Shown: in pieces, positions 46,667 to 62,693 of the stretch
Position numbering within the stretch: position 1 is the first letter of the stretch
Layout of the letters: the number at the start of each line of letters is the position of its first letter
Source: Novosphingobium barchaimii LL02
GTDB taxonomy: Bacteria > Pseudomonadota > Alphaproteobacteria > Sphingomonadales > Sphingomonadaceae
NCBI RefSeq assembly: GCF_001046635.1
Contig: NZ_KQ130453.1
Location: 702,040-766,039 of the forward strand
Direction of reading: 5' to 3'
DNA: 64,000 bases
Program-made: the position numbers and the translations under genes
Notes under the pieces: model-generated
What the model was told of the DNA's origin: nothing
Database searches by the model: none
The model's input: the letters and a program-made list of their open reading frames with translations, nothing else

Positions 46667-46694
46667 TTGACATATTGATATATGAATATAACAA
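46667..46694 (+). promoter_or_regulatory. Putative GntR operator A with overlapping promoter
   Basis: TTGATATATG (46675-46684) and AATATAACAA (46685-46694) form a 20-bp imperfect palindrome (8 of 10 pairs) that shares the half-site WTGWTATA with sites at 54800 and 62674. A perfect -35 box TTGACA (46667-46672) directly precedes it, so binding would block the promoter of the TonB receptor starting at 46736. Confidence 0.72.
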
Positions 46695-46735
46695 TACCCC
46701 TCGGCGACTGGTCGCCATTCCATGAGGGAATCGCC

Positions 46736-48958
46736 ATGACCGACTACCGACTGCTCCTTTCCACGATACTCGTACCGCTCAGCCTCGCCTCCGTGCAGGC
46801 GCAGGCTCAGACCCAGGAAGCACCCGCAGAAACCGGCGCACAGACCGGCGGGCTCGAAGACATCGTCGTCACCTCGCAGCGCCGGCAGGAAAAGCTGCAG
46901 GACGTACCGGTCACCGTCACCGCGTTCAACGATGCGATGCTGGAACGGCTCAACGTGCAGGATGCGATTTCCACATCGAAATTCGTTCCAGGCATGGTGT
47001 CGCAGCACAATGCGGGCCTTGCTTCGGCCAACGCCTATTATCTGCGCGGACTTGGCAACAGCCAGTCGACACCAACCTTCGATGCACCTGTCACCACGTA
47101 CGTCGACGATATCTACGTGGCGCGTCAGAACGCCAACAACTACGCCTTTTTCGATACAGAACGCGTCGAAGTACTGCGCGGACCTCAGGGCACGCTGTTC
47201 GGCCGCAACACCACTGGCGGCGCGATCGCGGTCATCATGCGCAAGCCCTCCGATACGGCCGGCATGAAGATGGAAATGAGCGGCGGATCGTATGACCGCT
47301 ACACCGTCAAGGCCACCGCCGACCTGCCGATCACCTCGCAAATCCTGACCAAGCTGTCGGGGTACGCGGTTCAGGATCGCGGCTATCTCAAGAACATCAC
47401 CACCGGCGAATGGCTCAACGGCGAAAGCAGCTACGGCGTGCGCGGCGATGTCCGCTTGCTGCCCACCGACCGCCTGACCATCGACGTCGCGGCCGAATAT
47501 ACCCGCAATTCAGGTACTTATGCGGGATTGCGCAACGTGCCCGGCACCAATCCTTACGTTCCCACGGCCACCACTCGCCCGGTGTTCTATGAGTCCGCCT
47601 CGGGCCTGACCTCGACCAGCTGCAACAACAACAACGCGCAGAACCTGCTTTCGAGCGAGGCGGGCAACTGCAACCTGTCCGAAAACATCGCCGTGAGCGC
47701 CAACGTCAACTATGCGTTCGACAACGGTTCGCTGACCTACATCTTCGGCTACCGCCATCTCGACCAGGGCTACATCAGCGAATACAACGGCAGCGCGGTC
47801 AACAAGTATGCCGGATACATCATCACCGACAACGGCACCCACGAACAGTGGTCGCACGAGCTGAAGTACAACACCGACCTGCTGGATGACCGCGTCCACC
47901 TCGTCACCGGCCTGTACTACCTCAAGGAAAAGTCCGACGATCGCCAGACCAGCTTCTCGGGCGGTACCACCGCATTCCGGCTCATCCAGGACCAGCACCT
48001 GCTGCCGCAGACCGAGACGGGCGCTGTCTATGCCCAGGCCGATTTCGACGTCACTGACCAGCTGACCCTGACTGCCGGCGGGCGCTACACGATCGAAACC
48101 AAGAAGGTGGGCTACCTCGCGTCCGAGGAATTCCCCGGCTTCGGCTACGATAGCGGCGATGTCGCTGCGTTCGGCATCCCGCTCAAGCGGACCTACCGCA
48201 AGTTCACGCCGCGCGTCGCGGTCAACTACAAGATCAACCCCGATGTGATGATCTTCGCATCGGCCACCAACGGCTTCAAGTCGGGCGGCTGGAACGGCGG
48301 CACCGCATCGCCCGCCAACGCGGTGCTGTTCAACCCGGAAAAGACCTGGTCTTTCGAAGGAGGCGTCAAGTCGGAACTGTTCGGCCGCAAGCTGCGCTTC
48401 AACGCCACCGGCTACTTCGCCCGGACCAAGGACCTGCAGGTCACTGCAGCCGTCAACAGCCCGATCACCGGCACGATCGCGCAGCTACCGTTCAATGCCG
48501 GCACGTTCGAAGCCTATGGCATCGAAATCGAGAGCACGGCGAAGTTCGGCAATTTGAGCCTTTTCGCGAACCCCTCGTTCATGCACGGCGAATATACCTA
48601 CATCGTACCCACTTCGACCACGTTGACCACCGCTTTCAAGCCGGTGCGCGTGCCAACCTTCCAGTTCAGTGGCGGCGCTGCTTACGAGGTTCCGGTGGAG
48701 GCGCTGGACGGTATGCTGGGCGCCAGCGTAACCTACCGGCACAATTCGCCCTACTGGGTCGCACTGCTCAACACCACGACGACGCAGACCGAAGACTTCG
48801 TCGACGCGGCTGTCAGCTACACCACCATGAGCGAGAACATGAAAATCTCGTTCGAGGTATCGAACCTGACCGACCAGAAGACCGTCACCGCGAACTTCAT
48901 CTCGCTCTTCCCCGGCGATCCGCGCCGGTACACGATGCGCGTGAAGTTCAAGATCTGA
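46736..48958 (+). CDS. TonB-dependent receptor (catabolic region, second)
   Basis: The ATG at 46736 has GAGGGAA upstream; an ATG at 46682 lies inside the operator and is rejected. The product has 740 residues with a signal peptide (LLLSTILVPLSLASVQAQA), TonB-box region LEDIVVTSQRRQEKLQD, plug with YLRGLGNSQSTPTFDAPVTT and VEVLRGPQGTLFGRNTTGG, and barrel with FASATNGFKSGGWNG ending RVKFKI. It takes up the pathway substrate across the outer membrane. It is the first gene behind operator A and likely leads an operon reaching the dehydrogenase at 52588. Confidence 0.92.
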   Translation: MTDYRLLLSTILVPLSLASVQAQAQTQEAPAETGAQTGGLEDIVVTSQRRQEKLQDVPVTVTAFNDAMLERLNVQDAISTSKFVPGMVSQHNAGLASANAYYLRGLGNSQSTPTFDAPVTTYVDDIYVARQNANNYAFFDTERVEVLRGPQGTLFGRNTTGGAIAVIMRKPSDTAGMKMEMSGGSYDRYTVKATADLPITSQILTKLSGYAVQDRGYLKNITTGEWLNGESSYGVRGDVRLLPTDRLTIDVAAEYTRNSGTYAGLRNVPGTNPYVPTATTRPVFYESASGLTSTSCNNNNAQNLLSSEAGNCNLSENIAVSANVNYAFDNGSLTYIFGYRHLDQGYISEYNGSAVNKYAGYIITDNGTHEQWSHELKYNTDLLDDRVHLVTGLYYLKEKSDDRQTSFSGGTTAFRLIQDQHLLPQTETGAVYAQADFDVTDQLTLTAGGRYTIETKKVGYLASEEFPGFGYDSGDVAAFGIPLKRTYRKFTPRVAVNYKINPDVMIFASATNGFKSGGWNGGTASPANAVLFNPEKTWSFEGGVKSELFGRKLRFNATGYFARTKDLQVTAAVNSPITGTIAQLPFNAGTFEAYGIEIESTAKFGNLSLFANPSFMHGEYTYIVPTSTTLTTAFKPVRVPTFQFSGGAAYEVPVEALDGMLGASVTYRHNSPYWVALLNTTTTQTEDFVDAAVSYTTMSENMKISFEVSNLTDQKTVTANFISLFPGDPRRYTMRVKFKI

Positions 48959-48967
48959 TCGCCGCAT

Positions 48968-49031: not shown

Positions 49032-49081
49032 GCCCTCCTGTCTAGACGCGCATCCCAAGGACAAGCAGAGTTAGGAATTCT

Positions 49082-49762
49082 ATGAGCATCGTCGGTACGA
49101 AGATGGTCAGCGACGGCAAGACCGCCCGCCAGATCTTCGAGGAAGTCATGGCAAATCCAGCCCGCACCAAGTTCGGCTTCGGTGAGAAGCTGGCGATCGT
49201 GAACGTGGATTTCCAGAACGCCTATACCCGGATCGACGAGTTCAAGACCGCCTACGAGACCGATCCGCGCCAGATCGAGCACACCAATACGATCTCGGCC
49301 CTCGCCCGCGCCAAGGGCATGCCGGTGATCTGGACCCATGTCGCCTACGCCGAGGATGCCAGCGATGCGGGCGTCTGGGGGACACGCACGAACACCCCGG
49401 ATTCGCTGCAGAACATCAAGTACGACGGCCGCCGCCATGCTTTCGACGAGCGGTGCGAGATCGACCCGGCCGACATGGTCTACAACAAACGCATGCCCTC
49501 GGCATTCTTCGAGACGCCGCTGCAGAGCCTGCTGATCTGGCACAAGGTCGATACACTGGTCATTACCGGCGGCTCGACCTCTGGCTGCATCCGCGCAACG
49601 GCGGTGGATAGCCTCAGCCGTGGCTACCGCACCATTGTCCCGATCGAAACCTGCGCCGACAAGCACGAAAGCTATCACTTCGCCAACCTGACCGACCTCC
49701 AGCTCAAGTATGCGGACGTCGAGCCGGTGCAGACCGTGATTGACTGGCTGGACGCCCGCTGA
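49082..49762 (+). CDS. Isochorismatase-family cysteine hydrolase, N-carbamoylsarcosine-amidase-like
   Basis: A protein of 226 residues with the family's catalytic triad visible: D43 in IVNVDFQNAY, K136 in VYNKRMPSAF and C169 in GGSTSGCIRATA. The last motif and the length match N-carbamoylsarcosine amidohydrolase and maleamate amidase-type enzymes, which split an amide or ureido group to acid plus ammonia. It is cytoplasmic. A GGA ribosome-binding site precedes the ATG. Its stop overlaps the start of the next gene (TGATG at 49760-49764), so translation is coupled to the PuuE-like hydrolases. The substrate is inferred to be a carbamoyl or amide intermediate. Confidence 0.88.
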   Translation: MSIVGTKMVSDGKTARQIFEEVMANPARTKFGFGEKLAIVNVDFQNAYTRIDEFKTAYETDPRQIEHTNTISALARAKGMPVIWTHVAYAEDASDAGVWGTRTNTPDSLQNIKYDGRRHAFDERCEIDPADMVYNKRMPSAFFETPLQSLLIWHKVDTLVITGGSTSGCIRATAVDSLSRGYRTIVPIETCADKHESYHFANLTDLQLKYADVEPVQTVIDWLDAR

Positions 49763-50664
49763 TGCGCGCCGGAATGCAGGAAGGACAGGCCGACCCCGGC
49801 CTCTACGACTTCAGCCCTTACCGGGACCGCCCGCCATTTTCTTGGCCGGATGGCAAGAAGGTGGCCGTCTGGGTTTCGCCCAATCTCGAATATTACGAGA
49901 TCGATCCCCCCGCGAACCCGCACCGCAAGTCCTGGGCAAAGCCGCACCCCGACGTGGTGGGCTATGCGCACCGCGACCATGCCAACCGCGTGGGCCACTG
50001 GCGCATGGCCGACGTAATGAGCAAGCACGGCTTTCCCGGCTCGGTCAGCCTTTCGGTGGCGCTGTGCCAGCACCACCCTGAAGTCGTGGCGGATGCCAAT
50101 GAGCGCGGCTGGGAATTCTTCAGCCACGGCATTTACAACACCCGCTATTCCTACGGCATGGACGAGGCGCAGGAGCGCGCGATCATCGAGGATTCGATCC
50201 GCACCGTGCGCGAGGCAACCGGCCAGACGATCCGCGGCTGGCTGGCCCCGGCGCTCACCCACACGCCGCGCACGCTGGACCTGATCGCGCAGTACGGGCT
50301 CGACTATACCTGCGACCTCTACCACGACGACCAGCCCCAGCGCGTCAACACAGCGAGCGGTGATCTGATCTCGATGCCCTACAGCCTCGAGGTCAACGAC
50401 CACTACGGTTTCTTCATCTACAACATGAGCCCGCGCGAATATGCGCGGACGCTGATCCGCCAGTACGAACGGCTTGCCGCCGAGCCTTCGGGCACTGTCA
50501 TGTGCATACCGCTGCATTCCTACCTGATCGGCCAGCCGCACCGCATCGGCGCCTTCGAGGAAGTTCTGCGCCACATCGCCGCCGATGGGCGCGCCTGGAT
50601 CACCCGCTCGGGCGACATCGCCGATGCGTGGAGAGCCGTCCACACCGGGGAGCCAGCCGCATGA
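49762..50664 (+). CDS. Polysaccharide-deacetylase-fold hydrolase, PuuE/allantoinase-like (first of pair)
   Basis: The 300-residue product starts within the TGATG overlap. It has the NodB-type barrel as found in PuuE: KKVAVWVSPNLEYYE at the first strand, WEFFSHGIYNTRYSYGM, IRGWLAPALTHTPRTLDLIA, and the late PLHSYLIGQPHRIGAF. The TFDD and HxxxH zinc-ligand motifs of true polysaccharide deacetylases are missing, as in the metal-independent PuuE allantoinases that open a hydantoin ring. A C-N bond hydrolase acting on a cyclic amide is thus more likely than a sugar deacetylase. It overlaps its downstream paralogue by ATGA. No signal peptide. Confidence 0.8.
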   Translation: MRAGMQEGQADPGLYDFSPYRDRPPFSWPDGKKVAVWVSPNLEYYEIDPPANPHRKSWAKPHPDVVGYAHRDHANRVGHWRMADVMSKHGFPGSVSLSVALCQHHPEVVADANERGWEFFSHGIYNTRYSYGMDEAQERAIIEDSIRTVREATGQTIRGWLAPALTHTPRTLDLIAQYGLDYTCDLYHDDQPQRVNTASGDLISMPYSLEVNDHYGFFIYNMSPREYARTLIRQYERLAAEPSGTVMCIPLHSYLIGQPHRIGAFEEVLRHIAADGRAWITRSGDIADAWRAVHTGEPAA

Positions 50665-51578
50665 CCCTCGACCCCAGCTATCTCGAATACCCCAGGCGCG
50701 CCCTGGGCTACGACCACGGGCTTTATCCCTATTCCGCCCTGCCGGACCGCAAACCGCTGGCATGGCCCGGCAGCAAGAGCGTTGCGACCTGGATCGTCGT
50801 CAGCCTCGAATGGTTCCCGATCACGCCAAGCGACACGCCCTTCCGGGCGCCGGGGCACATGCAGACCGCCTATCCCGACTACCGGCACTATACTTCGCGC
50901 GAATATGGTACGCGCGTCGGCTTCTACCGTCTGCTCGATGCTTTCGCCAAGGCGGGCGTCAAGGTTTCGGTCGCGGCGAATGGCGCCATCGCCCAGCGCT
51001 ACCCCTCGATCATCCGCGACGTGGCGGAGGCCGGGCACGAAGTGATCGCCCATTCCACCGACATGAACGGCACAATCGCCTCCACCCTGCCGGTGGAGGA
51101 CGAACGCGCCCTCATCCGGGACAGCATCGCTGCGCTTTGCGACGTGACGGGCGCGGCCCCGCGCGGCTGGCTCTCCATCGCCCGCTCGCAAAGCTTCGCC
51201 ACGCCCGACCTGCTGGTCGAAGCCGGGATCGAATATTGCTGCGACTGGGCGAACGACGAACTGCCTTGGGCCTTCGCCAATGGCCTCGTCAATCTGCCTT
51301 TGAACCACGAATTGTCGGACCGACAGATCCTCAACGTCCAGCAGCAGTCGGTAGACAGCTACGCTGAGCAGATGCTCGACGCGCACGACTGGCTGAGCAC
51401 CGAAGCCGAAGCGCAAGGCGGCGCACGCCTGCTGCCGCTGCACCTCACACCCTACATCATGGGTCTTCCCTACCGCATGGACGCCTTCGAGCGCCTGCTG
51501 GCAGAACTCGCCGCGCGCCCCCAGACATGGTTCGCGCGCGGATCGGACATTCTCGACAGCTTCAGGAGTCAAATGTGA
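50661..51578 (+). CDS. Polysaccharide-deacetylase-fold hydrolase, PuuE/allantoinase-like (second of pair)
   Basis: The ATG at 50661 overlaps the preceding stop, giving 305 residues; the longer frame is not used. The layout parallels its upstream neighbour: SVATWIVVSLEWFPI, HEVIAHSTDMNGTIAS, PRGWLSIARSQSFATPDLLVEAGIEY and LPLHLTPYIMGLPYRMDAFERLL. Again the zinc-ligand motifs of NodB enzymes are absent. The two are old paralogues that may act on successive ring or amide intermediates or form a hetero-oligomer. It is followed by a GTG-started dehydrogenase gene overlapping its stop. Confidence 0.8.
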   Translation: MTLDPSYLEYPRRALGYDHGLYPYSALPDRKPLAWPGSKSVATWIVVSLEWFPITPSDTPFRAPGHMQTAYPDYRHYTSREYGTRVGFYRLLDAFAKAGVKVSVAANGAIAQRYPSIIRDVAEAGHEVIAHSTDMNGTIASTLPVEDERALIRDSIAALCDVTGAAPRGWLSIARSQSFATPDLLVEAGIEYCCDWANDELPWAFANGLVNLPLNHELSDRQILNVQQQSVDSYAEQMLDAHDWLSTEAEAQGGARLLPLHLTPYIMGLPYRMDAFERLLAELAARPQTWFARGSDILDSFRSQM

Positions 51579-52588
51579 AAGCCTATCAGCTCGGCGCCCA
51601 GACCGGATTGTCCTCGCTCACCCCCGTCACCCGCCCCGATCCCGTGGCCGGTCCCGGTGAAGCGGTGCTCAAGGTCCGCTATGTTTCGCTCAACAACCGC
51701 GACCTGCAAATCCTCGAAGGCCGCTACGGCGCGAAGAAGCCGGAAGACCGCGTGCCCTTTTCCGAAGGCATCGGCGAAGTTGTCGCACTCGGCGAAGGTG
51801 CGACCGGCATCGCCGTGGGCGACCGCGCGGTACTTTCGCACTTCATCGCCTGGGGCGACGGGCCGTTCGACATGCGCTACTTCGGGGCCGACGTCGGCAT
51901 CACCCAGGACGGCTGGATGGCTGAATACCTGAAGGTCCCCGCATCCGCGCTTGTCCGCGTGCCCGAGAGCCTGGCCGATGAACAGGCTGCCGCGCTGGCC
52001 GCCGCAACGCTGACAGCATGGCATGCGGTCGCCGAAGTGGGCCAGGTCAAGGCGGGCGATCTTGTGGTCGCGCTGGGCACCGGCGGCGTCGCGATGGCCG
52101 CGCTGCAGATCGCCAAGGCCAACGGCGCTTTCGTTGCCATCACCTCGTCCAGCGACGAGAAGCTCGAACAGGCCCGCAAGGCTGGCGCCGACTTTACGGT
52201 GAACTACAGCAAAAACCCCGACTGGGCAGCCGAACTGATGAAGCAGACCGGCGGTCGCGGGGCCGACATCGTCGTCGAGACCGGCGGCCAGCACACCCTG
52301 CCGCAATCAATCAACGCCTGCGCGGTCAATGCCCGCATCGTCATTGTCGGCGCGGGCTCAGCTGACGGACCGTTGCCGAACTACGGCGCGATCATCGGCA
52401 AGAACCTTGTCATCAAGGGCATCGCCGCAGGCAGCCGCGGCATGCTGGTGCGCCTGCTGCGCGCCATGGAAGCCAACCCCTTTTCCCCGATGGTAGACCG
52501 CGTGTTCGGTTTCGACGAGGCTGTGGCCGCCTGCGAATACCTGAAGTCGGGCAGCCACCTAGGCAAAGTGCTGATCCGCGTTTCCTGA
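51575..52588 (+). CDS. Medium-chain dehydrogenase/quinone-oxidoreductase-type protein (GTG start)
   Basis: The start is GTG at 51575, overlapping the previous stop (GTGA) with AGGAG six bases upstream; product 337 residues. The GroES-like N-terminal domain (PGEAVLKVRYVSLNNRDLQILEGRYG) lacks the usual zinc cysteines. The NAD(P)-binding domain has VVALGTGGVAMAALQIAKANGA and the end KSGSHLGKVLIRVS. It belongs to the zinc-free quinone-oxidoreductase/enoyl-reductase branch of the MDR superfamily. It could reduce an activated double bond or oxidise an alcohol formed in the pathway. Last gene before a strong terminator. Confidence 0.87.
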   Translation: MKAYQLGAQTGLSSLTPVTRPDPVAGPGEAVLKVRYVSLNNRDLQILEGRYGAKKPEDRVPFSEGIGEVVALGEGATGIAVGDRAVLSHFIAWGDGPFDMRYFGADVGITQDGWMAEYLKVPASALVRVPESLADEQAAALAAATLTAWHAVAEVGQVKAGDLVVALGTGGVAMAALQIAKANGAFVAITSSSDEKLEQARKAGADFTVNYSKNPDWAAELMKQTGGRGADIVVETGGQHTLPQSINACAVNARIVIVGAGSADGPLPNYGAIIGKNLVIKGIAAGSRGMLVRLLRAMEANPFSPMVDRVFGFDEAVAACEYLKSGSHLGKVLIRVS

Positions 52589-52645: not shown

Positions 52646-53476
52646 TCAATCGCCGCCGGGGTTTTGCAGGTCCATGCGGATGTTGAAGCGGTCTGAGCGG
52701 TAATGCGCGTAAGTGCGCAGGAACGGCTTGTCCTGCCCATCGTAGACCGTGCGCGTGATCCGCAGGATGGCGGAAAGCGGCTCGACGTTAAGCCGCTCCA
52801 CGCAGAGCACGTCGGCCAGCATCGCGCCGATGGTCTGCTCGGCGTGCTTGGCGCGGAAGCCCGCGTCGTCCAGCAGTTTCAGGATCGGCGCGCGTACCAG
52901 CGAATTCTCGTTGACGATCGCCTCCAGCGCGCCCGGCACATAGCTGACGACGTAGCCGATCGGCACGCCGTCGAGGCAGCGCACGCGCACTGCGCGGATC
53001 ACGTCGGCGCCTACTTCGAGTTGCAGCGCGCTGGCGACGGTGGCGGTCGCCTCACGTTTTTCCACCGAGATGACGTTGACGGTGGTGCCTTGTCCCAGCG
53101 CCAGCAGGGAATCCACAGCCTGGTTGATGTTCGCCTCAAGCGGTTTGGCGGGAGACTTGAACACCACCCGCGTGCCAAGGCGGCGCTTGCGCTCGACGTA
53201 GTTCTGATCGGCCAGATCGTTCAGCACCCGGCGCGCGGTGATCCGCGATACGCTGTAGAATTCGGATACCTCGGCCTCGGTCGGCATGGCGCTGCCATAA
53301 GGCCGCTGGCCGCTGAGAATCTCGTCGCGCAGCATCAGGTAGATCTGGTGATAGAGCGGCACTGCCGTTGCGCGGTCGAGCACGTATTTCCCCCGGAAGG
53401 CCGATTCGGAACTTTCACGCGGCGCGCTGGAATTCCGGCTTTCCCTGCTATTCGGGGCCAGCCCCTGCTTAGTCAA
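52646..53476 (-). CDS. GntR-family (HutC subfamily) regulator of the catabolic region, TTG start
   Basis: The likely start is TTG at 53476: it overlaps the upstream transporter stop (TTGA) and has GGGAGGAG eight bases before it. The in-frame ATG at 53497 has no ribosome site. The product has 276 residues. The winged helix reads AVPLYHQIYLMLRDEILSG, PTEAEVSEFYSVSRITARRV and LNDLADQNYVERKRRLGTRV. The C-terminal UTRA ligand domain includes DVIRAVRVRCLDGVPIGYVVSYVP and ILRITRTVYDGQ, typical of HutC/FarR regulators. Being in an operon behind operator B, it probably represses itself and the three units bearing the shared palindrome. Confidence 0.9.
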   Translation of the reverse strand: MTKQGLAPNSRESRNSSAPRESSESAFRGKYVLDRATAVPLYHQIYLMLRDEILSGQRPYGSAMPTEAEVSEFYSVSRITARRVLNDLADQNYVERKRRLGTRVVFKSPAKPLEANINQAVDSLLALGQGTTVNVISVEKREATATVASALQLEVGADVIRAVRVRCLDGVPIGYVVSYVPGALEAIVNENSLVRAPILKLLDDAGFRAKHAEQTIGAMLADVLCVERLNVEPLSAILRITRTVYDGQDKPFLRTYAHYRSDRFNIRMDLQNPGGD

Positions 53477-54720
53477 GCCGCAGGCTCCTCCCGCCATATC
53501 GGATAACGGCCCATGGCAAGCAGCGATATTCCTCCCGCCACAAGGCAGCCGACCCCGGCCATCAGCGCGACGTCGTATCGCCCCATCGTATCGAAGGCCC
53601 AGCCATAGACCACCGGCCCAAGCCCGCCGCCGAACGCGATTACGGTGTAGAAACAGCCATAGATCGTCCCATAGTTGCGGCGACCGAAATAGCGGGCGAT
53701 CAGGTAGGCCAGCAGGTCGAACTCGAAACCCGCACCAAGCCCCAGCGCGATCACCGAAAGCACCGCGTGAGAGGTATCCACCTGCGGCTGGGCGAGCATG
53801 AAGCTACCCAGCGCCGGCATGGCGAGGATCACCAGCGCGCAGCCCGGCGCCCAGAACCGGTCCAGCAGCCAGCCCCCGATCACGCGCCCGGCGATCACTG
53901 AAAGCCCGAACCCGGCGGTGATCGCACCGATCTCCGCCAGCGCGAAGTGTCGGGTCTTGAGGATGTTTTCGAGATTGGGCGTCGGCGCGGTGAGCGCGAA
54001 GGCAATCAGCAGGAATGCAAAGGTCATTACCCAAAAACGGCGGTCATGCAGCGCCTCGCGCAGCGTCGCCCCGCCTTCCACGATGGCCGGGGCTGTACTG
54101 TTAATTGCCGCCCTCTCCCCGCGTTCACGAAACAGCAGCGCTACAACCGGCACGCCGACCACGATAGGCAGCGCACCAATCACCACGAAGGCGGTGCGCC
54201 ACCCGAAATCGCCGATCAGCCACGCGGCGAAAGGCTTGACCAGAAACCCGGTAATGCCCGTGCCGGTGCTGGCGACGCCGATCGCGAGCCCGCGATGTTT
54301 CTCGAACCAGCCGTTGACGGTGTAAGTCCAGGTCGCCGTCAGCGTGCCCGCGCCCACCACCGACATCAGCATCCACTGGGCGTAATAGATCCAGAGGTTA
54401 CCGTTGCTGAGCGACAGGCTCATGAAGGTCAGCCCGAACAGCACCAACGAAACCAGCGCCACCGGACGCGGCCCAAACCGGTCAACCGCGAAGCCGGCCA
54501 TCGGCCCGGTCGCCATGACCACCAACGACTGCACGGTAATCGCGCCCATCAGCGAGGCGAATGTCCACCCGAACGCGCTCTGAAGCTCCGGCGCGAACAT
54601 GCCGACGGTGTAGAACGGCAGCGGACTGAGCCCCATCGCCAGCCCGATCATGGCCGCGAAGACCACCACCCAGCCCGCACGTCCATCGCGTGGTTGCAGA
54701 GCCGATGAAGGGGATTCCAT
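53473..54720 (-). CDS. MFS transporter, oxalate/formate-antiporter-like
   Basis: The ATG at 54720 with GAGGT upstream is chosen over a GTG five codons earlier; product 415 residues. It has twelve membrane helices with GWVVVFAAMIGLAMGLSPLPFY, GPMAGFAVDRFGPRPVALVS and VNGWFEKHRGLAIGVASTGTG. It is clearly paralogous to the transporter at 45377-46642: same motif spacing and the same ending (GRYP). A duplicated carrier in one region suggests uptake of two related compounds or uptake plus export. It is first in an operon with the GntR gene and diverges from the hydrolase gene across operator B. Confidence 0.88.
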   Translation of the reverse strand: MESPSSALQPRDGRAGWVVVFAAMIGLAMGLSPLPFYTVGMFAPELQSAFGWTFASLMGAITVQSLVVMATGPMAGFAVDRFGPRPVALVSLVLFGLTFMSLSLSNGNLWIYYAQWMLMSVVGAGTLTATWTYTVNGWFEKHRGLAIGVASTGTGITGFLVKPFAAWLIGDFGWRTAFVVIGALPIVVGVPVVALLFRERGERAAINSTAPAIVEGGATLREALHDRRFWVMTFAFLLIAFALTAPTPNLENILKTRHFALAEIGAITAGFGLSVIAGRVIGGWLLDRFWAPGCALVILAMPALGSFMLAQPQVDTSHAVLSVIALGLGAGFEFDLLAYLIARYFGRRNYGTIYGCFYTVIAFGGGLGPVVYGWAFDTMGRYDVALMAGVGCLVAGGISLLAMGRYPIWREEPAA

Positions 54721-54799
54721 GGTGTTCGACCTCACTCTTTATCGCCTGTCGGAGGGGGTGTCCCGGGTACTGGACAAGTCATCGATCCTGACACAGTAT

Positions 54800-54839: not shown

Positions 54840-56528
54840 ATGACCACCACGACCGCCGAGGGAATTGAGCGCCACTACGTGACCACGCAGGGCCGGCAGG
54901 TTCACTACCGGGTTTGCGGCCAGGGCCCGGCGGTTGTCCTGCTGCATGATTCCCCGCGATCCTCGCGGTTGCACAGTCCAGCGATGAAAATGCTCGCCAG
55001 CCGGTTTCGGGTCTTCGCGCTCGACACCCCGGGCTATGGCAATTCGGACCCTTTGACGGCGACCGAACCAACCATTCTTGATTTCGCCGAGGCGCTTGGC
55101 GAAACGCTGGCGGCCTTGGGGCTTGAACGCGCTCCGCTTTACGCAACACACACCGGCGCCAAGATCGCGCTGGCCCTCGCTGCGCGCGGCGGCAAGATGC
55201 CGCTGCTGGTGCTGGACGGTTTGTCGATCCCCGATGCTCCGGCGCCGGAGACCTTCATTTCCGCCTATATGCGTCCGTTCCAGCCCGATGCCAGCGGTGC
55301 ATATCTCGCTGCGGAATGGGTCCATGTGCGCGATATGCTGCGTTGGTTCCCGTGGTTCTCGCACGAAGCCAAAAGCCGCATCGCCATGGACTCGCCCAGC
55401 GCGGAATGGCTCGAAGACTACGGCATCGATCTCTTCAGCGCCGGCCCGCACTATTCCTGCGCCTATGCCGCCGCGATGCGCTGGAGCCCATGGGAGGATC
55501 TGCTGGCCGTCAAGGTCCCCACCCTTGTAGCCGCCAAGAGTGACGATGTGCTTTACGCCTACCTCGACAAGGTCCCCACGGACCACAACCCCAGTCTTTC
55601 GGTCGAACGCCTCGGCAGCGACCGCGGCGAATGGCTGGACTGGCTGGCGGAAAGGCTGACGCAGGCGGCAACTGCCGCTGCGCCAGCCTCGCCCCCCACA
55701 CAGCACGAGGCACAGCGCGGCTATGTGGACCTGCCACAAGGGCAGCTCCACTGGCGCAGGGGCGGCTCACAACAAGGGCGCACGGCGCTGATCCTCTCCG
55801 CCCCGACCACGCTGGAAGCGCTGGACTGGGCGTGCGAACTCGGCGCCGAGCGTCCGACTTTAGTGCCCGACCTACCCGGCTTCGGGGATTCCGACCCTCT
55901 TCCCGAACCATGCGCCGATGCCGTGGCCGATTGCCTTGCCCTGTTGATCGAACGCCTGGGATGCGGCCCGGTGGACGTAGTCGCAATCGATCTCGCGGCG
56001 CCGATCGGCGCAAGGCTGGCGGCCCGCCACCCCGCGCTCATAAACGCTCTGACCATTAACGGCGCGCCGCCGCTGGGCGCTGCCGCCGCAGCGACTATGC
56101 GGGCGGCAACCTCTCCGCAGATCGCCTTCGACGCTCATGCCGGCAGCCACCTCCACCGCGCATGGCACATGTTGCGCGACAGTCAGGTGCAATGGCCCTG
56201 GTACGATCTCTCGCAGCAGGCCGCGCGCAAGACCGGCGTTCTGCCCGACCCTATGGCCATGCTGGCGGCCCTGACCGGAATACTAAAGCAGCGCCAGCAT
56301 TTCGGGCAAGCTGCCGATGCCGCACTCGGCGCGTGTGAAGCGGCAAGCTGGGCCGAAGTGAGCGTCCCGGCGCTAGTCTGCCTGGGCGACGATCCCGCGC
56401 AGCGCGAGGCACCCGAAATCGCCGCGCTCATGCCTCAAGCCAGGACGCTCCAACTGCCCTCCGACCGCGCGCAGGCCGCCGCGCTGCTGCTCGCCGCAAT
56501 GGGCGCGCACCTCGCGGTGGCCTCGTGA
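54840..56528 (+). CDS. Tandem alpha/beta-hydrolase fusion protein with atypical nucleophile elbows
   Basis: A protein of 562 residues made of two alpha/beta-hydrolase domains (about 1-285 and 295-560). Domain 1 has the oxyanion loop LLHDSPRSS, the LDTPGYGNSD strand and the elbow YATHTGAKIA, in which H104 occupies the nucleophile position instead of Ser/Asp/Cys. Domain 2 has LVPDLPGFGDSDPL and the elbow VAIDLAAPIG, with aspartate at that position and weaker conservation. A hydrolase-type reaction or a cofactor-free ring cleavage/lyase reaction is possible; the second domain may be structural. The neighbouring hydrolase at 60905 shares the His elbow. First gene of a plus-strand operon behind operator B. 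Confidence 0.82.
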   Translation: MTTTTAEGIERHYVTTQGRQVHYRVCGQGPAVVLLHDSPRSSRLHSPAMKMLASRFRVFALDTPGYGNSDPLTATEPTILDFAEALGETLAALGLERAPLYATHTGAKIALALAARGGKMPLLVLDGLSIPDAPAPETFISAYMRPFQPDASGAYLAAEWVHVRDMLRWFPWFSHEAKSRIAMDSPSAEWLEDYGIDLFSAGPHYSCAYAAAMRWSPWEDLLAVKVPTLVAAKSDDVLYAYLDKVPTDHNPSLSVERLGSDRGEWLDWLAERLTQAATAAAPASPPTQHEAQRGYVDLPQGQLHWRRGGSQQGRTALILSAPTTLEALDWACELGAERPTLVPDLPGFGDSDPLPEPCADAVADCLALLIERLGCGPVDVVAIDLAAPIGARLAARHPALINALTINGAPPLGAAAAATMRAATSPQIAFDAHAGSHLHRAWHMLRDSQVQWPWYDLSQQAARKTGVLPDPMAMLAALTGILKQRQHFGQAADAALGACEAASWAEVSVPALVCLGDDPAQREAPEIAALMPQARTLQLPSDRAQAAALLLAAMGAHLAVAS

Positions 56529-57868
56529 CCCAGGCCGCCACCGAGGCTGCGGTGTGGCCGCGGCGGTCCTATGCCTGGTACGTCCTTGCCCTGCTGACGC
56601 TTGCCTACGCGCTGGCGATCCTCGACCGCGTTTCGATTGCGCTGCTGATCGAACCGCTGCAAAAATCGCTGGCGATCGACGACACCCAGTTCGGTCTGCT
56701 GCAAGGCATGGCGTTCAGTGTCGTCTACAGCGTCCTTGGGCTCCCTCTGGGTATGCTCAGCGACCGGTCCAGGCGCGTGCCGTTGCTGCTGGGCGGACTT
56801 ACCTTATGGAGCCTCGCCACCATCGGCTGCTCGTTTGCCTCGACCTTCCACGAACTGTTCCTTGCGCGCATGATGGTGGGTGTGGGCGAAGCCGCGCTGG
56901 TCCCGGTGGCGACCTCGCTGATCGCCGATTACTTTACGCCGGGCGTCCGGCCCAAGGCTTACGGCCTGTTCGTGACCGGCAGCTCGCTCGGCACAGCGGC
57001 GGCGATGGCCCTGGGCGGCCTGTTCCTCGACTGGGCGGACGGGTTGATCGCCTCGCTGCCCGCGATCTTCGGCCATATGCAGGCATGGCAAGTGGTCTTC
57101 GTACTGTGCGGAGCGCCGGGGCTGGTGCTGGCACTGCTCCTGCTGTTGACGGTGCGCGAACCTGCACGCCAAGGCAGCACGCAGGCCTCCCAGCCGTTAA
57201 GCCTTCGCCCGATCCTGCACCTCTTCGCCCAGCGGCCCGGTGCCTTCGCGCTGTTCATGCTGGGTTCGGTCCTCAACCTCGTCTGCGTCTACGCCATCGT
57301 TGGCTGGTTTCCCGCATTGTTCATCAGGGTCCATGGCTGGGGCGCGGCGGAAACAGGCAAGATACTGGGCACATACGGCCTACCGGTGTCGGTCTTTGCG
57401 GCGGTGAACAGTGGCTGGGTCATCGCCTGGCTGGCGCGGCGCGGCCACAAGGATGCGCCGATCCTGTGCGCAATGGGCTGCGCGGCTTCGATGGCGGTGT
57501 TCGGCACGCTATCGTGCCTCGCCCCGAGCGGCAGCCTGGCGCTGACCGGATACCTGCTCAACGCGCTGTTTCTCAACTGGAACACCTCGGCGGTCTATTC
57601 GGGCTTTGCGCAGATCACCCCCAACCATCTGCGCGCGCAGGTTATGGCGCTGCAGACGATAGCCTCGGGCCTCGTCGCGCTGACGGCGGGCAATTTCATC
57701 GTCGGCTTCCTGTCCGACACCGTATTCACCGGAAGGACCGGCATCGCATGGTCGCTCGGCAGCGTATTCTTCGCCTGCGGGCTCGGCGCCTTCTTCGTGC
57801 TCATGGCGGCAAGACGCAGTTTCCGCAAAGCCGCCGCCGATCTCGCCGCCCTGGAGCCTGCCCGATGA
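56525..57868 (+). CDS. MFS transporter, spinster/aromatic-acid type (GTG start)
   Basis: The start is GTG at 56525, overlapping the hydrolase stop (GTGA). The product of 447 residues has twelve membrane helices. Motifs are YVLALLTLAYALAILDRVSIALL in helix 1, LPLGMLSDRSRRVPLL in loop 2-3 and FLARMMVGVGEAALVPVATSLIADYF in helix 4-5, the pattern of the spinster-like branch abundant in sphingomonad catabolic clusters. It moves an unknown organic compound across the inner membrane with protons. Its stop overlaps the start of the FAD oxidase gene (ATGA). Confidence 0.87.
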   Translation: MTQAATEAAVWPRRSYAWYVLALLTLAYALAILDRVSIALLIEPLQKSLAIDDTQFGLLQGMAFSVVYSVLGLPLGMLSDRSRRVPLLLGGLTLWSLATIGCSFASTFHELFLARMMVGVGEAALVPVATSLIADYFTPGVRPKAYGLFVTGSSLGTAAAMALGGLFLDWADGLIASLPAIFGHMQAWQVVFVLCGAPGLVLALLLLLTVREPARQGSTQASQPLSLRPILHLFAQRPGAFALFMLGSVLNLVCVYAIVGWFPALFIRVHGWGAAETGKILGTYGLPVSVFAAVNSGWVIAWLARRGHKDAPILCAMGCAASMAVFGTLSCLAPSGSLALTGYLLNALFLNWNTSAVYSGFAQITPNHLRAQVMALQTIASGLVALTAGNFIVGFLSDTVFTGRTGIAWSLGSVFFACGLGAFFVLMAARRSFRKAAADLAALEPAR

Positions 57869-59442
57869 CCACTGACCTTGCCCCGCTGTTCGATGCGCTC
57901 CGGGCTATCCTTGGCAGCGGCGAACTGCTGAGCGACCCGGAAAGCCTGCGCCTGCACGGCTCCGACTTGCTGGCGGAGGGCGCGGATTGCATCATGGTCG
58001 TGCGTCCATCTTCGGTCGAAGCCCTGGCCGCTGCGGTCGGGCTGATTGGCCGGGCCGGGATCGCCATGGCCCCGCGCGGTGGCGGCCTTACCTATGTGCG
58101 CGGCTACACGCCGACCGACCGCCGCTTCGCTGCGATAGACCTCTCTCGCCTCAACCGGGTGATCTCGGTCAGCGAGGAGGACATGATCGTCACCGTCGAA
58201 GCAGGCGCGACCTGGAAGCAGGTCCACGAAGCGCTGGCCCCGCTTGGCCTGCGCCTACCGTTCTTCGGCACATTTTCCGGCATCCGCGCCACTGTCGGCG
58301 GCGGGCTGTCGAACGGGGCGCTGTTCCTGGGCACCGCGCGCCATGTCTCTGCCGCCGAAGCGGTGGTCGGCATGGAAGTGGTGCTGGCGGATGGCTCGCT
58401 GCTCCACACCGGGCAGAAGGGGGTGGCGCTTGCCCCGCTGCCCTTCATGCGCACATTCGGACCGGACACGACCGGCCTGTTCGTCCACGATGCCGGCGCG
58501 CTGGGCATCAAGGCGCGGGTAAGCCTGCGGCTGATCCGCGCGCCCCGCCACAGCGGCTTCCTGTCGTTCGGCTTCGAGCGCCAGGCAGACGGCATCGCCG
58601 CACTTTGCGAGATCGCCCGCAGTGATCTGGCCGAAGACGCCTACATGATGGACCCGGACAAGACCCGCGCTGCCCTCTCCGGCCCTACCGACCTTGTCCA
58701 CGACGTTCGCGTGCTGGCCAAGGTCGCCCGGCAGGAACGCGGTCTTTTCAAGGGCCTGAAGGCAGGCGCGAAGCTGGCGATGGCAGGCCGCTCATTCATC
58801 GACGCGGGGTGCCATTCGCTGCACCTCGTCCTTACCGGGCGCAGCGAGGCGGCGGTCGAGGCAGACATGGCCGAGGTGCGCGCGATTGCCGCGCGCTTCG
58901 ATGGACGCGAACTGGCAGATTCCATCCCCCGCGCAGGCCGGGCCGACCTGTTCGTGCCAGTTGACGGCATGATCCTGGGCCCCGATGCCGACCGCTGGAT
59001 CGCGCTCAACGCAAAAGTGCCGCATAGCGAGGCCATGCGGTTGACCAATGAAGTGGAGGCGCTGCTGTCCCGGTACAAACCCGCGCTCGATGCCGCAGGT
59101 GTCACCGTTTCGCGCCTACTGACGGTGATGGGCACTCATGCCTTCAGTTATGAGCCGGTGCTCAACTGGCGCGATGCCTGGTTGCCGCTGCACCGCGACA
59201 TCCTTGGGCCCGCCCCCCGTTTCGCCGAGCCGGACGCTGCGCCCGATGCCCGTGCTCTGGTGATGAAAGTCCGCGGCGAACTGATCGCGCTGTTCGCCCG
59301 GCTGGGCGCCGCCTCCAATCAGATCGGGCGGACGTATCCTTATGCCTCGGTACTGCGACCGGAAGCACGCGCGCTGCTCGAAGCGCTCAAGCGCGCGGTC
59401 GATCCTCAGGGCGTGATGAACCCCGGAGCGTTGGAACTGTGA
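57865..59442 (+). CDS. FAD-linked oxidase/dehydrogenase (PCMH/GlcD type)
   Basis: The ATG at 57865 overlaps the transporter stop; product 525 residues. The long frame upstream is a shadow. The PCMH-type FAD domain (about 40-225) has VVRPSSVEALAAAV, APRGGGLTYVRGYTP, VTVEAGATWKQVHEAL and GGGLSNGALFLGT. The C-terminal substrate domain ends ALLEALKRAVDPQGVMNPG, as in glycolate and D-lactate dehydrogenases and vanillyl-alcohol-oxidase relatives. It would oxidise a hydroxy acid or an alkylphenol-like alcohol. No signal peptide or covalent-FAD histidine was identified with certainty. Last gene before a terminator. Confidence 0.87.
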   Translation: MTTDLAPLFDALRAILGSGELLSDPESLRLHGSDLLAEGADCIMVVRPSSVEALAAAVGLIGRAGIAMAPRGGGLTYVRGYTPTDRRFAAIDLSRLNRVISVSEEDMIVTVEAGATWKQVHEALAPLGLRLPFFGTFSGIRATVGGGLSNGALFLGTARHVSAAEAVVGMEVVLADGSLLHTGQKGVALAPLPFMRTFGPDTTGLFVHDAGALGIKARVSLRLIRAPRHSGFLSFGFERQADGIAALCEIARSDLAEDAYMMDPDKTRAALSGPTDLVHDVRVLAKVARQERGLFKGLKAGAKLAMAGRSFIDAGCHSLHLVLTGRSEAAVEADMAEVRAIAARFDGRELADSIPRAGRADLFVPVDGMILGPDADRWIALNAKVPHSEAMRLTNEVEALLSRYKPALDAAGVTVSRLLTVMGTHAFSYEPVLNWRDAWLPLHRDILGPAPRFAEPDAAPDARALVMKVRGELIALFARLGAASNQIGRTYPYASVLRPEARALLEALKRAVDPQGVMNPGALEL

Positions 59443-59479: not shown

Positions 59480-60208
59480 TCAGCGGCTCAGTTCGACCAG
59501 TTCGTACCAGGTCTGCATGTAACCACCGACGCCGCCCTGCACGAAGATCGCATCGTCGTCCGCCGTCACCCACACCTCGTAGGGCGGGTGCGAGTGGCCG
59601 TCGATCGAGATCATGCCGCCGGCATCGTCAGTGAACTGGTACTTGTAGCAATCGAAAGTACCCGCCGCGACAGTGACGGTTTCCTCTCCGAGATAGCCAA
59701 GATCGATGTTGGATTCCGCGATAAGCGGCGGCGTTGCGCCGCGATGATCGGGCGAGGGCAGGAAGCAACGGAAGTTGCGCTTATGCACCCCCAACGAACG
59801 GTCGATCTTCTTGGTGATATAAGCGTCGCCCGAGATCGGGTGAGTGCCGAAACCGTCGAAGTCACCGCCGATCGGCATCGTCTGCGAGACGCGGCCGATC
59901 GAGGGGCCGTAACTTTCGCATTCGACTGCGTCCTTGCCGATGATGAACAGGCCGGAACCCATGAATTTATCACCGATGGTAAGGCGCACGAAGCAATCCA
60001 TCGGCCGGTCGTTCTCGTCGAGGCTATAGACGACGTCGCGGTGGACGGTCGGTGCCGGTTCGTCGATCTCGCAGCGGGCGCGCAGGCTTCGCTTGCCATC
60101 CGTGTGGTGAGTGAACGTGAACCATTCGCGCCCACGCTCCTGGCCTTCACGGCCGGGCTTGCGCGAGGTGTAGAGGATCTTTCCGCTAATCGTGCGATGC
60201 TGCTGCAT
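59480..60208 (-). CDS. Conserved hypothetical protein (242 aa), DUF3108-like features
   Basis: The ATG at 60208 has GGAG upstream. The product is soluble, lacks a signal peptide and is rich in beta strands. The segment EETVTVAAGTFDCYKYQF resembles the strand pattern seen in DUF3108-type proteins, where a cysteine follows a VPAGTF-like turn. Several histidines (FTHHTDG, DGHSHPPYEVW) might bind metal. No firm family can be named. It is the last gene of a minus-strand operon that starts at operator C, 30 bases after the membrane-protein gene, so it is likely a pathway enzyme or binding protein. Confidence 0.65.
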   Translation of the reverse strand: MQQHRTISGKILYTSRKPGREGQERGREWFTFTHHTDGKRSLRARCEIDEPAPTVHRDVVYSLDENDRPMDCFVRLTIGDKFMGSGLFIIGKDAVECESYGPSIGRVSQTMPIGGDFDGFGTHPISGDAYITKKIDRSLGVHKRNFRCFLPSPDHRGATPPLIAESNIDLGYLGEETVTVAAGTFDCYKYQFTDDAGGMISIDGHSHPPYEVWVTADDDAIFVQGGVGGYMQTWYELVELSR

Positions 60209-60238: not shown

Positions 60239-60901
60239 TTAAACAGGGGTGGCGATGCCGAGGAAGCAGGCGATCAGGACCAGTACCCAGATGCTGATCA
60301 CGCTGACGCGCGCGCGGCTGTTGACGGCGGCGATGACACGGTCGGTCTCGGGCGTCGGGCCGGTTTCCCGCATCTGGATGATGGCGGGGAACAGCGGCAC
60401 CAACTGACGCCGCACGATGAGGCCCAAGGTAATGCAGATGGCCAGTGCCAGCATCTTGAGCGCGATGAACAGCGGCACCGCGATCTCGCCGGAAAGGCCC
60501 AGCATCACCGCAGCCACCAGTCCGGCCAGGACGAGATAGCGCACGAAAATATCGAAGCGCTTGTACGCCTGCCCCTGCGGCCCGTGCTTCAGGTGCACTG
60601 CCCAGGCCAAGGCCAGCCACGCCAGTCCCAGCACCCCGGCGACCACCGCATAAGACACCGGAACGTCCAGCCAGCCCTTGGCCACGGCAAGGCCAAAGCC
60701 GGTCGGGAATGCCAGGATCAGCATGGTGCGCGGCGCCATGTCGATGTTGTTGAGGATCGTGAGCGCCATCATCCGCTCGGGCACCGAACGCTTGGGGTCC
60801 ACCATGAATCGCGACCCGTAAAAGGCGCCCAGATCCCCGCCCAGCCAGTAGACCGGAACAAGAATGTGAAGCAGCGTCAGCAGCGAAAGGCCGATATCCA
60901 T
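60239..60901 (-). CDS. Integral membrane protein (220 aa) of the catabolic operon
   Basis: A protein with about six hydrophobic helices. It begins MDIGLSLLTLLHILVPVYWLGGDLGAFYGSRFMVD; the early histidine in a helix recalls heme-binding membrane proteins such as the CopD/DUF2269 group, but this is weak. Other helices include RTMLILAFPTGFGLAVA, YAVVAGVLGLAWLALAWAVHL and ALKMLALAICITLGLIV. It lies three bases after the hydrolase stop. A role as electron-accepting partner or carrier is speculative; no function is established. Confidence 0.7.
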   Translation of the reverse strand: MDIGLSLLTLLHILVPVYWLGGDLGAFYGSRFMVDPKRSVPERMMALTILNNIDMAPRTMLILAFPTGFGLAVAKGWLDVPVSYAVVAGVLGLAWLALAWAVHLKHGPQGQAYKRFDIFVRYLVLAGLVAAVMLGLSGEIAVPLFIALKMLALAICITLGLIVRRQLVPLFPAIIQMRETGPTPETDRVIAAVNSRARVSVISIWVLVLIACFLGIATPV

Positions 60902-60904
60902 GGC

Positions 60905-61756
60905 TTAGTTATTTCCTGCGAAGAAGGCGGCCATCGCGTCGTGGCGCAAGGTTCGAAATCCGGGGTCGTCGAAGCGCGGCAGTTCAAGGAAGCGCCCGTG
61001 CGGCAGCAGCGGCGCAAGGCGGGCGCTGGCATCATAAAGCGGATCATTGACTGCGGCCGTAACCAGCACCGGGCACTGGATAAGCGGCAGGCGGCGGTCG
61101 GCCGGCCACTTGAACGCGGCACGGTAGTTGAGGTGGTAGGTCGTGCTCGCCTTCATCACTTCAGTGACCCAGGCATGTAGGTCTTCAGCGCTGCCCAACC
61201 CGCCGTCGCGGCGTCCCTCGCGGGTGCGGCGATACCAGGGGAAGAACAGGTACTGGTCGCGGCAGAACTGGAACAACCGGGCAAGATAGGCACCGTCGAG
61301 GTCGGGCTCGAAAGGGAAAGCGTATGTGGCGAGGATTTCCTCCAGCTCTGCGCCTTCCATCAGGCTGACGCCATCGAGGACAAGATGGCTCACTCGCTCG
61401 GGCGCAAGGATCGCCAGTTCGGCAGCGATCGCCGCGCCGGTGTGCGAGCCGTAGACGCGCACCTGCTCAAGGCCCATCGCGTCGAGATATTCCAGCATGG
61501 CCCCGGCCAGCGCGGCAATCTCGGGTTCTTTGGCGCTGAGTGCCTCACTGTCGCCATTACCCGGCGTGTCGGGGGCGAACACCATGGCCTCGCCCGCGAA
61601 GTCCTCGATCAGGCGGACCTGCTGGCGCGAGGAGCCGGGCGATGCGTGGAGGATCAGCAGCGGCTGCCCCTTCTCGCCCGCGCAGCGATAGTGAACCTGC
61701 CTTTGCGCCAGATCAGCGAAACCGCGGCGAATGCGGACCTGCGTATCCATCGTCAC
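60905..61756 (-). CDS. Alpha/beta-hydrolase with histidine at the nucleophile elbow
   Basis: A protein of 283 residues; the ATG at 61756 overlaps the VOC gene stop (ATGA). The single alpha/beta-hydrolase domain has the oxyanion loop LILHASPGSSR, the PDTPGNGDSE strand and the elbow VYGSHTGAAIAAEL, where H105 takes the nucleophile place of G-x-Nuc-x-G (the adjacent S104 is shifted by one). A late aspartate (AAVNDPLYD) and histidine (TLRHDAMAAFF) keep the rest of the charge relay. It resembles domain 1 of the fusion at 54840. It may be a cofactor-free lyase, dioxygenase or unusual hydrolase. Second gene of the operon behind operator C. Confidence 0.85.
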   Translation of the reverse strand: MTMDTQVRIRRGFADLAQRQVHYRCAGEKGQPLLILHASPGSSRQQVRLIEDFAGEAMVFAPDTPGNGDSEALSAKEPEIAALAGAMLEYLDAMGLEQVRVYGSHTGAAIAAELAILAPERVSHLVLDGVSLMEGAELEEILATYAFPFEPDLDGAYLARLFQFCRDQYLFFPWYRRTREGRRDGGLGSAEDLHAWVTEVMKASTTYHLNYRAAFKWPADRRLPLIQCPVLVTAAVNDPLYDASARLAPLLPHGRFLELPRFDDPGFRTLRHDAMAAFFAGNN

Positions 61757-62643
61757 AGCGCCCCGCCTTCGATGATTTCAAGCAGCGCGCCCTCCGGTGT
61801 CAGCAGGACACCGGTGCGCCGACCACCGTAAAGCGGCCCCTCGCGCACCGCTGGCGGCGAGGCCCAGTGCCCTTCGAGCCGCGTGAAATCGGGGTGGAGC
61901 ATCGTCGTGATGGCCACGCCCGGCGGCAATGCGCCCGGATGACAAGGACGTTTCCCGGCACCTTCGGGATACTGGTCGAGTTCGAGAAAAACCTGTCCCC
62001 CCCCTTTGGCGGTGACGAGTTCGGTCTTGGCGTCCTCGGCAAGCCCGAAGCTGAGTGTGATCATCGAATAGCGGATCGCCACCGGATCGATCACCGGAAG
62101 GCCAAGCACGTCCTTCACCCACTGCGCCGACTTGCGCAGGTCCGGGCAAGCCAGCACCATGATGAAAGGCCGGTCGACCAGCGAACGCGGCTGCGGCAGA
62201 CCCGTATCCGGGCCCGGCTGGAGGATTTCGGTGAGATAGACCGTTTCCAGGTCGGCGCCGCGAACCTGCATTGGCTTGACCGTGGCGAACCCGTCGAGTT
62301 CCTTGGGCGGGCCGATCACCTCAAAGGGGCTTTCCAGCATCTTTGCATTGACCGCCTCGACATTCGACACGCACAGTTCGATGGCTGCCCAGCCGTAGCT
62401 GCGTATCGGCAAATAGTCCGCCACCGGATCGCCCTCCACGAAGCGCAGGAACACTTCCTCACCCGAAGCAGGCTGCAACACGGCATAGGCCTTGCCCACG
62501 CTAGCGGGCGCCTGCCAAGCAGCGGCGAGGTCTTCAGGCACAGCCCCTTCTTCGACGAGGCGGTAGTCCATCCAGGTTTCGTAACGCTCGATTGCCGCTG
62601 GAACATCCGCAACGACATGGGTGGCACACTTGAGTAAGGTCAT
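61753..62643 (-). CDS. VOC-superfamily protein (glyoxalase/extradiol-dioxygenase fold), two modules
   Basis: The ATG at 62643 with GAGGAG upstream is used; the longer frame starts within operator C. The 296 residues fold as two VOC modules: the first from TLLKCATHVVADVPAAIERY to about 130, the second from RPFIMVLACPDLRKSAQWVKDVLGLPV to the end (TPEGALLEIIEG). A histidine (H8) and a terminal glutamate are placed like VOC metal ligands, but a full set is not certain. VOC proteins act as dioxygenases, isomerases or glyoxalases. As first gene behind operator C it probably carries out a ring or isomerisation step. Confidence 0.82.
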   Translation of the reverse strand: MTLLKCATHVVADVPAAIERYETWMDYRLVEEGAVPEDLAAAWQAPASVGKAYAVLQPASGEEVFLRFVEGDPVADYLPIRSYGWAAIELCVSNVEAVNAKMLESPFEVIGPPKELDGFATVKPMQVRGADLETVYLTEILQPGPDTGLPQPRSLVDRPFIMVLACPDLRKSAQWVKDVLGLPVIDPVAIRYSMITLSFGLAEDAKTELVTAKGGGQVFLELDQYPEGAGKRPCHPGALPPGVAITTMLHPDFTRLEGHWASPPAVREGPLYGGRRTGVLLTPEGALLEIIEGGAL

Positions 62644-62673
62644 TTTGGCTCCTCGCCCTGCCCGTCGATTAAT

Positions 62674-62693
62674 TTGATATACATTTATATCAT
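62674..62693. promoter_or_regulatory. Putative GntR operator C
   Basis: TTGATATACA (62674-62683) and TTTATATCAT (62684-62693) form a 20-bp palindrome with core TGATATA/TATATCA. It lies 31 bases upstream of the VOC gene start in the 112-base spacer after the MmgE/PrpD gene. Half-sites match operators A and B. Confidence 0.72.

Follow-up and report, generated by a model that had tools for sequence, protein, structure and literature searches.

The 64-kb stretch of the Novosphingobium barchaimii LL02 genome analysed here (64,000 nucleotides of contig NZ_KQ130453.1, in the following called the window) carries a catabolic island and, within it, the gene gntR for a regulator of the GntR family. Sequence comparison makes it very probable that one HutC-subfamily GntR repressor controls this island via a 24-bp operator, WWTTGWTATAnn-nnTATAWCAAWW, located before the leader genes of its units. 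We find that the palindrome follows the regulator and not the pathway gene, because at the loci of the isochorismatase gene it is present or missing together with gntR. In a sample of 347 genomes of the family, 62 carry this gene, 19 with a gntR orthologue (GntR+) and 43 without (GntR-, meaning no match at E 1e-50 to the orthologue profile, so that more distant regulators are possible). A site lies at most 2.5 kb upstream of the isochorismatase gene in 18/19 GntR+ genomes vs 0/41 GntR- genomes (G252, G269 and a second copy in G238 (69%) were left out), with a Fisher p of 2e-14 that overstates independence, as the GntR+ clusters may share ancestry. The single GntR+ genome without a site, G024, also has the weakest gntR match (4.5e-52). 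Consistent with the assignment of the motif to GntR in an earlier note on this DNA, 27 of the 40 sites in 18 GntR+ genomes other than Novosphingobium AP12 were located within 25 kb of gntR, where 0.48 are expected, even with the sites on G023 C4 and G322 C2, which lie by the isochorismatase region, counted as distant.

Genome-wide counts come from relatives of the window genome, namely Novosphingobium AP12 and ST904 and plasmids of Novosphingobium, Sphingobium, Sphingomonas JE1 and Acidiphilium. The motif is rare, as the earlier reading requires: AP12, a close relative, has 4 sites with at most one mismatch in 5.6 Mb, all on the two cluster contigs C19 and C9, and the farthest site on the gntR contig is 26 kb from gntR. 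Contig C19 ends within puuE2 and C9 begins within puuE1, and therefore the two very likely adjoin. Orthologues of gntR were found in 20/347 genomes, and 16 of the 18 neighbourhoods fetched (the 3.4-kb gntR contig of G024 was left out) have a site with at most one mismatch. Units away from the regulator keep the site as well. On the complete megaplasmid of RL4 the tonB block lies about 350 kb from gntR and retains its site, and the same holds for ST904, G322, G023 and G162, where target unit and gntR are on different contigs, which in drafts need not be distant. Thus, several units, some of them unlinked, have a common site that is present with the regulator and missing without it, as in a regulon.

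Within the window, we searched for WTGWTATANNNNTATAWCAW with up to three mismatches, using 100 shuffles as null. Four matches were obtained, 46675-46694 and 62674-62693 without mismatch, 54800-54819 with one and 46667-46686 with two; beyond these, the 64 kb contain none at this threshold. Shuffled windows gave on average 0.00 matches at up to two and 0.10 at up to three mismatches. The three palindromes described earlier are real, A and C being exact and B having one mismatch, a quality that no shuffle reached, and their reported absence from all other spacers of 41-64 kb holds at up to three mismatches. Other details of that description need adjustment. Five, not six, half-sites fit WTGWTATA, the left half of site B being TCGTTATA. 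The TTGACA noted ahead of site A is present at 46667, but forms the outer half-site of another register that overlaps the first, so that A is a double site. All three sites are upstream of a unit start, site C lying between two minus-strand genes and leading only the voc unit. The four units stand, comprising 14 genes (5+2+3+4) instead of about fifteen. Site A is ahead of tonB-isoch-puuE1-puuE2-adh, site B splits abh2-mfs3-fadox from the divergent mfs2-gntR, and site C is ahead of voc-abh1 and two genes without assigned function. Scores refer to the position weight matrix (PWM) described below. The features are:

45377-46642: mfs1, MFS gene upstream of site A, no own site.
46667..46694, no strand: operator A, two overlapping palindrome registers 8 bp apart (46667-46686, 46675-46694), PWM 31.2 and 38.8.
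46736..48958, plus strand: tonB, TonB-dependent receptor, leader behind operator A (Pfam Plug and barrel).
49082..49762, plus strand: isoch, isochorismatase-fold hydrolase (Pfam; PDB relatives include N-carbamoylsarcosine amidohydrolase).
49762..50664, plus strand: puuE1, PuuE-allantoinase-like, polysaccharide-deacetylase family (Pfam; PDB 3cl6 PuuE, 1.8e-25).
50661..51578, plus strand: puuE2, second polysaccharide-deacetylase-family protein (Pfam).
51575..52588, plus strand: adh, zinc-type alcohol dehydrogenase/quinone oxidoreductase (NCBIfam, below cut-off).
52646..53497, minus strand: gntR, regulator with GntR winged helix-turn-helix (HTH) plus UTRA, HutC subfamily (Pfam).
53473..54735, minus strand: mfs2, MFS transporter, immediately upstream of gntR in the same orientation and preceded by operator B (Pfam MFS_1).
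54800..54819, no strand: operator B, divergent spacer between abh2 and mfs2-gntR, one mismatch in the left half, PWM 33.1.
54840..56528, plus strand: abh2, two alpha/beta-hydrolase stretches in one chain, leader right of operator B (Pfam Abhydrolase_1).
56525..57868, plus strand: mfs3, MFS transporter (Pfam).
57865..59442, plus strand: fadox, FAD-linked oxidase (Pfam FAD_binding_4).
59480..60208, minus strand: DUF3108-like protein (below cut-off).
60239..60901, minus strand: hypothetical protein (no family above cut-off).
60905..61756, minus strand: abh1, alpha/beta-hydrolase (Pfam).
61753..62643, minus strand: voc, leader behind operator C, weak glyoxalase/VOC label (Pfam Glyoxalase, E 0.008-0.01, below cut-off).
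62674..62693, no strand: operator C, upstream of the voc-led unit, PWM 37.6.

The product of gntR combines an N-terminal GntR winged HTH domain (PF00392, 8.4e-16, 57.8 bits, cut-off 27) with a C-terminal ligand-binding UTRA domain (PF07702, 2.7e-27, 95.7 bits, cut-off 23.8) and therefore belongs to the HutC subfamily. With 95.8 bits against TIGR02018 it stays below the cut-off of 220 for HutC, and the protein is a member of the subfamily, not HutC itself, the histidine utilisation repressor. The previous designation as HutC-type is hence right at the subfamily level, based on the UTRA domain, but does not extend to the operator, which departs from the published HutC consensus. Among the named proteins of 41-64 kb that were run through Pfam (adh through NCBIfam only), gntR remains the only regulator gene of the region, as had been stated. 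The profile of GntR orthologues matches the YvoA and DasR structures, and SRITARR in the HTH is invariant in 11 orthologues including that of the window, at 42-93% identity to it. The true start of gntR may be near 53395; most of 30 listed plasmid relatives align to GntR from residue 35 or later, while the AP12 protein aligns in full length.

Conservation of the motif was analysed in 29 loci with 670 kb in total, window included, in which overlapping registers and near-identical plasmids were counted as they come. Sites with 0, 1 and 2 mismatches number 13, 27 and 24, compared to 0, 0 and 0.3 in Markov sequence. The PWM derives from 47 distinct sites (at most one mismatch) of GntR+ loci and was then applied to some of those loci, with a threshold of 13 set against a null maximum of 12.7 in 960 kb of Markov sequence. 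The 47 sites give a palindromic logo of 22-24 bp in which the central 4 bp carry almost no information. The spacer is fixed: with N4, 40 sites have at most one mismatch, and any other spacer from 0 to 15 gives 0-7. A third half-site 8 bp away accompanies 8 of 94 oriented sites, some of which are copies of a single site, against a background mean of 0.1 and maximum of 3. Extra boxes are among the features reported for GntR-family sites (Suvorova et al., 2015; PMC4494728). A half-site signal at +8/+3 (22/94), which overlaps with the site, was disregarded. It could be argued that such palindromes are chance AT-rich promoter elements in a GC-rich genome, and indeed the sites are AT-rich like promoters. 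This explanation is hardly credible, given that shuffles and Markov controls contain none of such quality, that the spacer is 4 bp and that neither the control genes described below nor the isochorismatase loci of GntR- genomes have a site.

In orthologous clusters the motif is conserved at the same unit starts. For the position test, PWM scores at the threshold of 13 were collected from -300 to +60 around each gene start, the starts in relatives being mechanical gene calls plus tblastn. A site was present before tonB in 19/19 loci, including six in which tonB is only 34-37% identical, before abh2 and mfs2, which share a spacer, in 13/13 loci each, and before voc in 14/16. Further leaders that had the site are the HMG-CoA-lyase-like gene HMGL (13/14), a CoA-transferase gene (12/13) and a methyltransferase gene (10/10). 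Three sites and four units, as originally counted, are therefore correct for the window and too few for the relatives, in which HMGL-, CoA-transferase-, methyltransferase- and hydantoinase-side units also carry sites. Operon-internal genes have no site (isoch 0/19, puuE1 0/19, fadox 0/10, abh1 0/10), and neither do genes read as outside the regulon (mfs1 0/5; prpD 0/9, the copy at the right edge of the window not counted), which adds up to 0/72 for both control groups. Seven loci had been fetched because they bear sites (L081, L082, L084, L087, L089, L108, L109); without them the counts are 16/16 for tonB, 11/11 for HMGL, 10/10 for the CoA-transferase and 9/9 for the methyltransferase. In the two voc misses (L004, L005) the gene call places voc closely behind prpD, and the miss for HMGL and the CoA-transferase is AP12, where both genes are behind LeuC on the same strand. 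On the Sphingomonas plasmid pJE1 eight spacers have sites, the weakest with a PWM of 13.3, and four that score 20-24 are outside the training set.

How would such an operator act? A GntR dimer would bind the palindromes and occlude the promoters, so that the units are repressed; through site B the regulator would also control its own gene, and a ligand derived from the substrate would bind the UTRA domain and release the repressor. In the presumed tonB promoter, operator A extends over a -35-like TTGACA and the greater part of a -10-like AACAAT, a placement that is what steric repression predicts. The arrangement TTGACA-17-AACAAT under operator A is the same in the window, RL4 and ST904, with TTGACT in AP12, and in L091 the tonB promoter words are kept while the palindrome is in the other register. 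It is unlikely that binding of GntR to the sites leads to activation, or to a mixture of activation and repression, as operator A sits over this promoter in all these loci. Activation would be compatible with some sites being at least 100 bp from the gene start. Members of the HutC subfamily are mostly repressors. NagR and DasR are described as such in the titles and abstracts of the respective papers.

Several observations weigh against control of the island by GntR as a repressor. Binding and repression are deduced from sequence, and the p value of the isochorismatase comparison is weakened by the possible common ancestry mentioned above. Only 8/29 loci have an own site in the 300 bp upstream of gntR; in 7 loci (window, L001-L005, L091) gntR is directly behind the site-bearing mfs2. 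For leaders other than tonB no common -35/-10 geometry was found, the best matches reaching 7-10/12. The neighbourhoods L106 and L107 have no site with up to two mismatches within about 10 kb of gntR; L107 (G180) has two sites 12-13 kb from gntR, and in L106 (G054) the isochorismatase is also absent. The Acidiphilium locus L010 has only a weak site (PWM 18.6). In the GntR- stretches (6-20 kb) two PWM matches, 13.0 (G123) and 16.9 (G333, AT-rich), are located 5-6 kb from the isochorismatase gene. Finally, the operator deviates from the HutC consensus, and another sphingomonad has an almost identical palindrome ahead of an ArsR-type gene.

The last two points could be combined into the view that the palindrome is bound by an unlinked regulator, such as one of the ArsR type, and that the GntR gene is a neighbour with a different operator. 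We regard this as quite improbable. Perfect TGWTATA-N4-TATAWCA occurs in 33/327 GntR- genomes and in 10/20 GntR+ genomes (Fisher 2e-5), and such co-occurrence alone is a weak test. The isochorismatase-anchored test was used because another palindrome family adds hits to this comparison. In another set of 29 loci that were inspected, twelve, one of them (L072) from a GntR+ genome, carry TGTTATA(AAAA/TTTT)TATAACA, and in the one GntR- locus tested (L058) this site is directly before an HTH_20/ArsR-type gene. A search by motif only would lump the GntR and the ArsR-type palindromes together. An unlinked regulator would, however, leave the difference between GntR+ and GntR- isochorismatase loci unaccounted for, and among the four AP12 sites with at most one mismatch, all on cluster contigs, no self-operator of another regulator was seen at that quality. 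Conservation does not extend to the HutC consensus GTMTAKAC, which also fails as an operator of GntR: the 29 loci of the conservation analysis contain it 10 times, twice in intergenic regions, and the window copy at 49040 is missing from the matching spacer in AP12, RL4, ST904, L091, L004 and L005. As a separate observation, the second palindrome lies at the centres of L058-L061, L064-L066, L069, L070, L072, L074 and L075, often with TTGACA beside it.

Two further features of the units deserve mention. A very stable hairpin is located at 48968-49031 between tonB and isoch (-56.4 kcal/mol, z -5.9), and a similar stem can be read at the tonB-isoch spacer of AP12, RL4 and ST904. It is possibly a messenger RNA stability or attenuation element that sets the receptor apart from the enzymes. 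The VOC label of the protein encoded at 61753-62643 is uncertain; an AlphaFold model from three sequences has a mean predicted local distance difference test score (pLDDT) of 41, which is too poor to judge the label.

The gene content of the relatives gives hints on the pathway. Between 2.5 and 44.8 kb of pJE1 this GntR is the only annotated regulator, although the annotation may be incomplete. The same stretch encodes an isochorismatase-family protein, two polysaccharide-deacetylase-family proteins, two LeuCD pairs, an HMG-CoA-lyase-like protein, a CaiB/BaiF CoA-transferase, a PEP-mutase/isocitrate-lyase-family protein and hydantoinase A/B. The pJE1 cluster (L110, L008, L111) spans about 42 kb. 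One end has an integrase gene, plasmid partition genes follow beyond the opposite end, and the plasmid is typed as mobilizable. A cluster contig of AP12 has LeuC-, HMGL-, CoA-transferase- and hydantoinase-like genes. In one GntR- locus (L146) the neighbours are LeuC-like, PuuE-like, zinc dehydrogenase and hydrolase genes, which are the families of the cluster. By tblastn, LeuCD, HMGL and CoA-transferase genes are not in the window. The enzyme content suggests degradation of a cyclic imide through an alkylmaleate. Judged by these genes, the island would import a nitrogen-containing compound, the PuuE-like pair and the isochorismatase-like half-amidase would hydrolyse a cyclic imide or amide, and the resulting alkylmaleate-type diacid would pass through LeuCD hydratase, CoA-transferase and HMGL-like lyase. 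For the order we assume cyclic imide, half-amide, alkylmaleate, hydroxy acid, CoA ester and cleavage, and we take imidase, half-amidase, dimethylmaleate hydratase and citramalyl-CoA-type lyases as models for the route.

A wider proposal is possible but doubtful. In it, the repressor would stand for a class within the HutC subfamily that has an operator architecture of its own, in which the half-sites are separated by one helical turn and the GT-N4-AC core is lacking, and the pathway under its control would be a mobile one of sphingomonads for a compound of tetrapyrrole-like or other pyrrole/lactam type. The rings of this compound would be opened by enzymes of hydantoinase, PuuE and isochorismatase type via alkylmaleimides to alkylmaleates, which LeuCD hydratases, CoA-transferase and lyases would carry on to central metabolism. 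Searches of the literature library used here gave nothing on pJE1/Sphingomonas sp. JE1 or the gene families of the cluster, only unrelated papers for imide and alkylmaleate terms, judged by titles and the starts of abstracts, and only a Caulobacter iron study for GntR, TonB and sphingomonad operators. Strain TomTYG65 is among isolates from tomatine-treated soil in a paper whose main text does not contain the word GntR (PMC10653915).

Linking a regulator, its operator and coherent targets is of use for a catabolic island that sphingomonad plasmids and megaplasmids carry as well. The regulon shows which genes belong together, so that the substrate can be searched for: any compound inducing tonB, abh2 and voc jointly would be the substrate or close to it. 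Structural work gains an operator of the HutC subfamily that departs from the published consensus, and diverse orthologues to go with it. Comparing genomes that have a pathway gene in common but differ in the regulator is an unusually clean computational test of a regulator-site pair.

The type of regulator is already known. HutC, NagR/YvoA, DasR, PhnF and TreR repressors share with this GntR the winged HTH plus UTRA domain combination. Divergons served by a single site have been described for the GntR/HutC family, as have additional half-sites (PMC4494728). The published HutC consensus, NyGTMTAKACNy, has GT and AC 4 nt apart (PMC4494728), unlike TGWTATA-N4-TATAWCA, where the conserved G and C are 15 bp apart around a degenerate centre; that consensus is the usual one, with published exceptions, and not a defining feature of the subfamily. 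FarR, NagQ and SdhR are HutC-subfamily members that also have off-consensus operators, but with different sequences (PMC4494728). FarR and NagQ use direct repeats, unlike the palindromes described here, while the SdhR palindrome with its additional symmetry recalls the overlapping registers of site A (PMC4494728). The ArsR-type sphingomonad operator is almost the same palindrome with the same spacing, and several copies have TTGACA beside them; it differs in the adjoining HTH_20/ArsR-type gene (one locus), the A- or T-run spacer and other flanks. Thus, the operator of the island is a variant outside the published HutC consensus that belongs to a familiar type of regulator.

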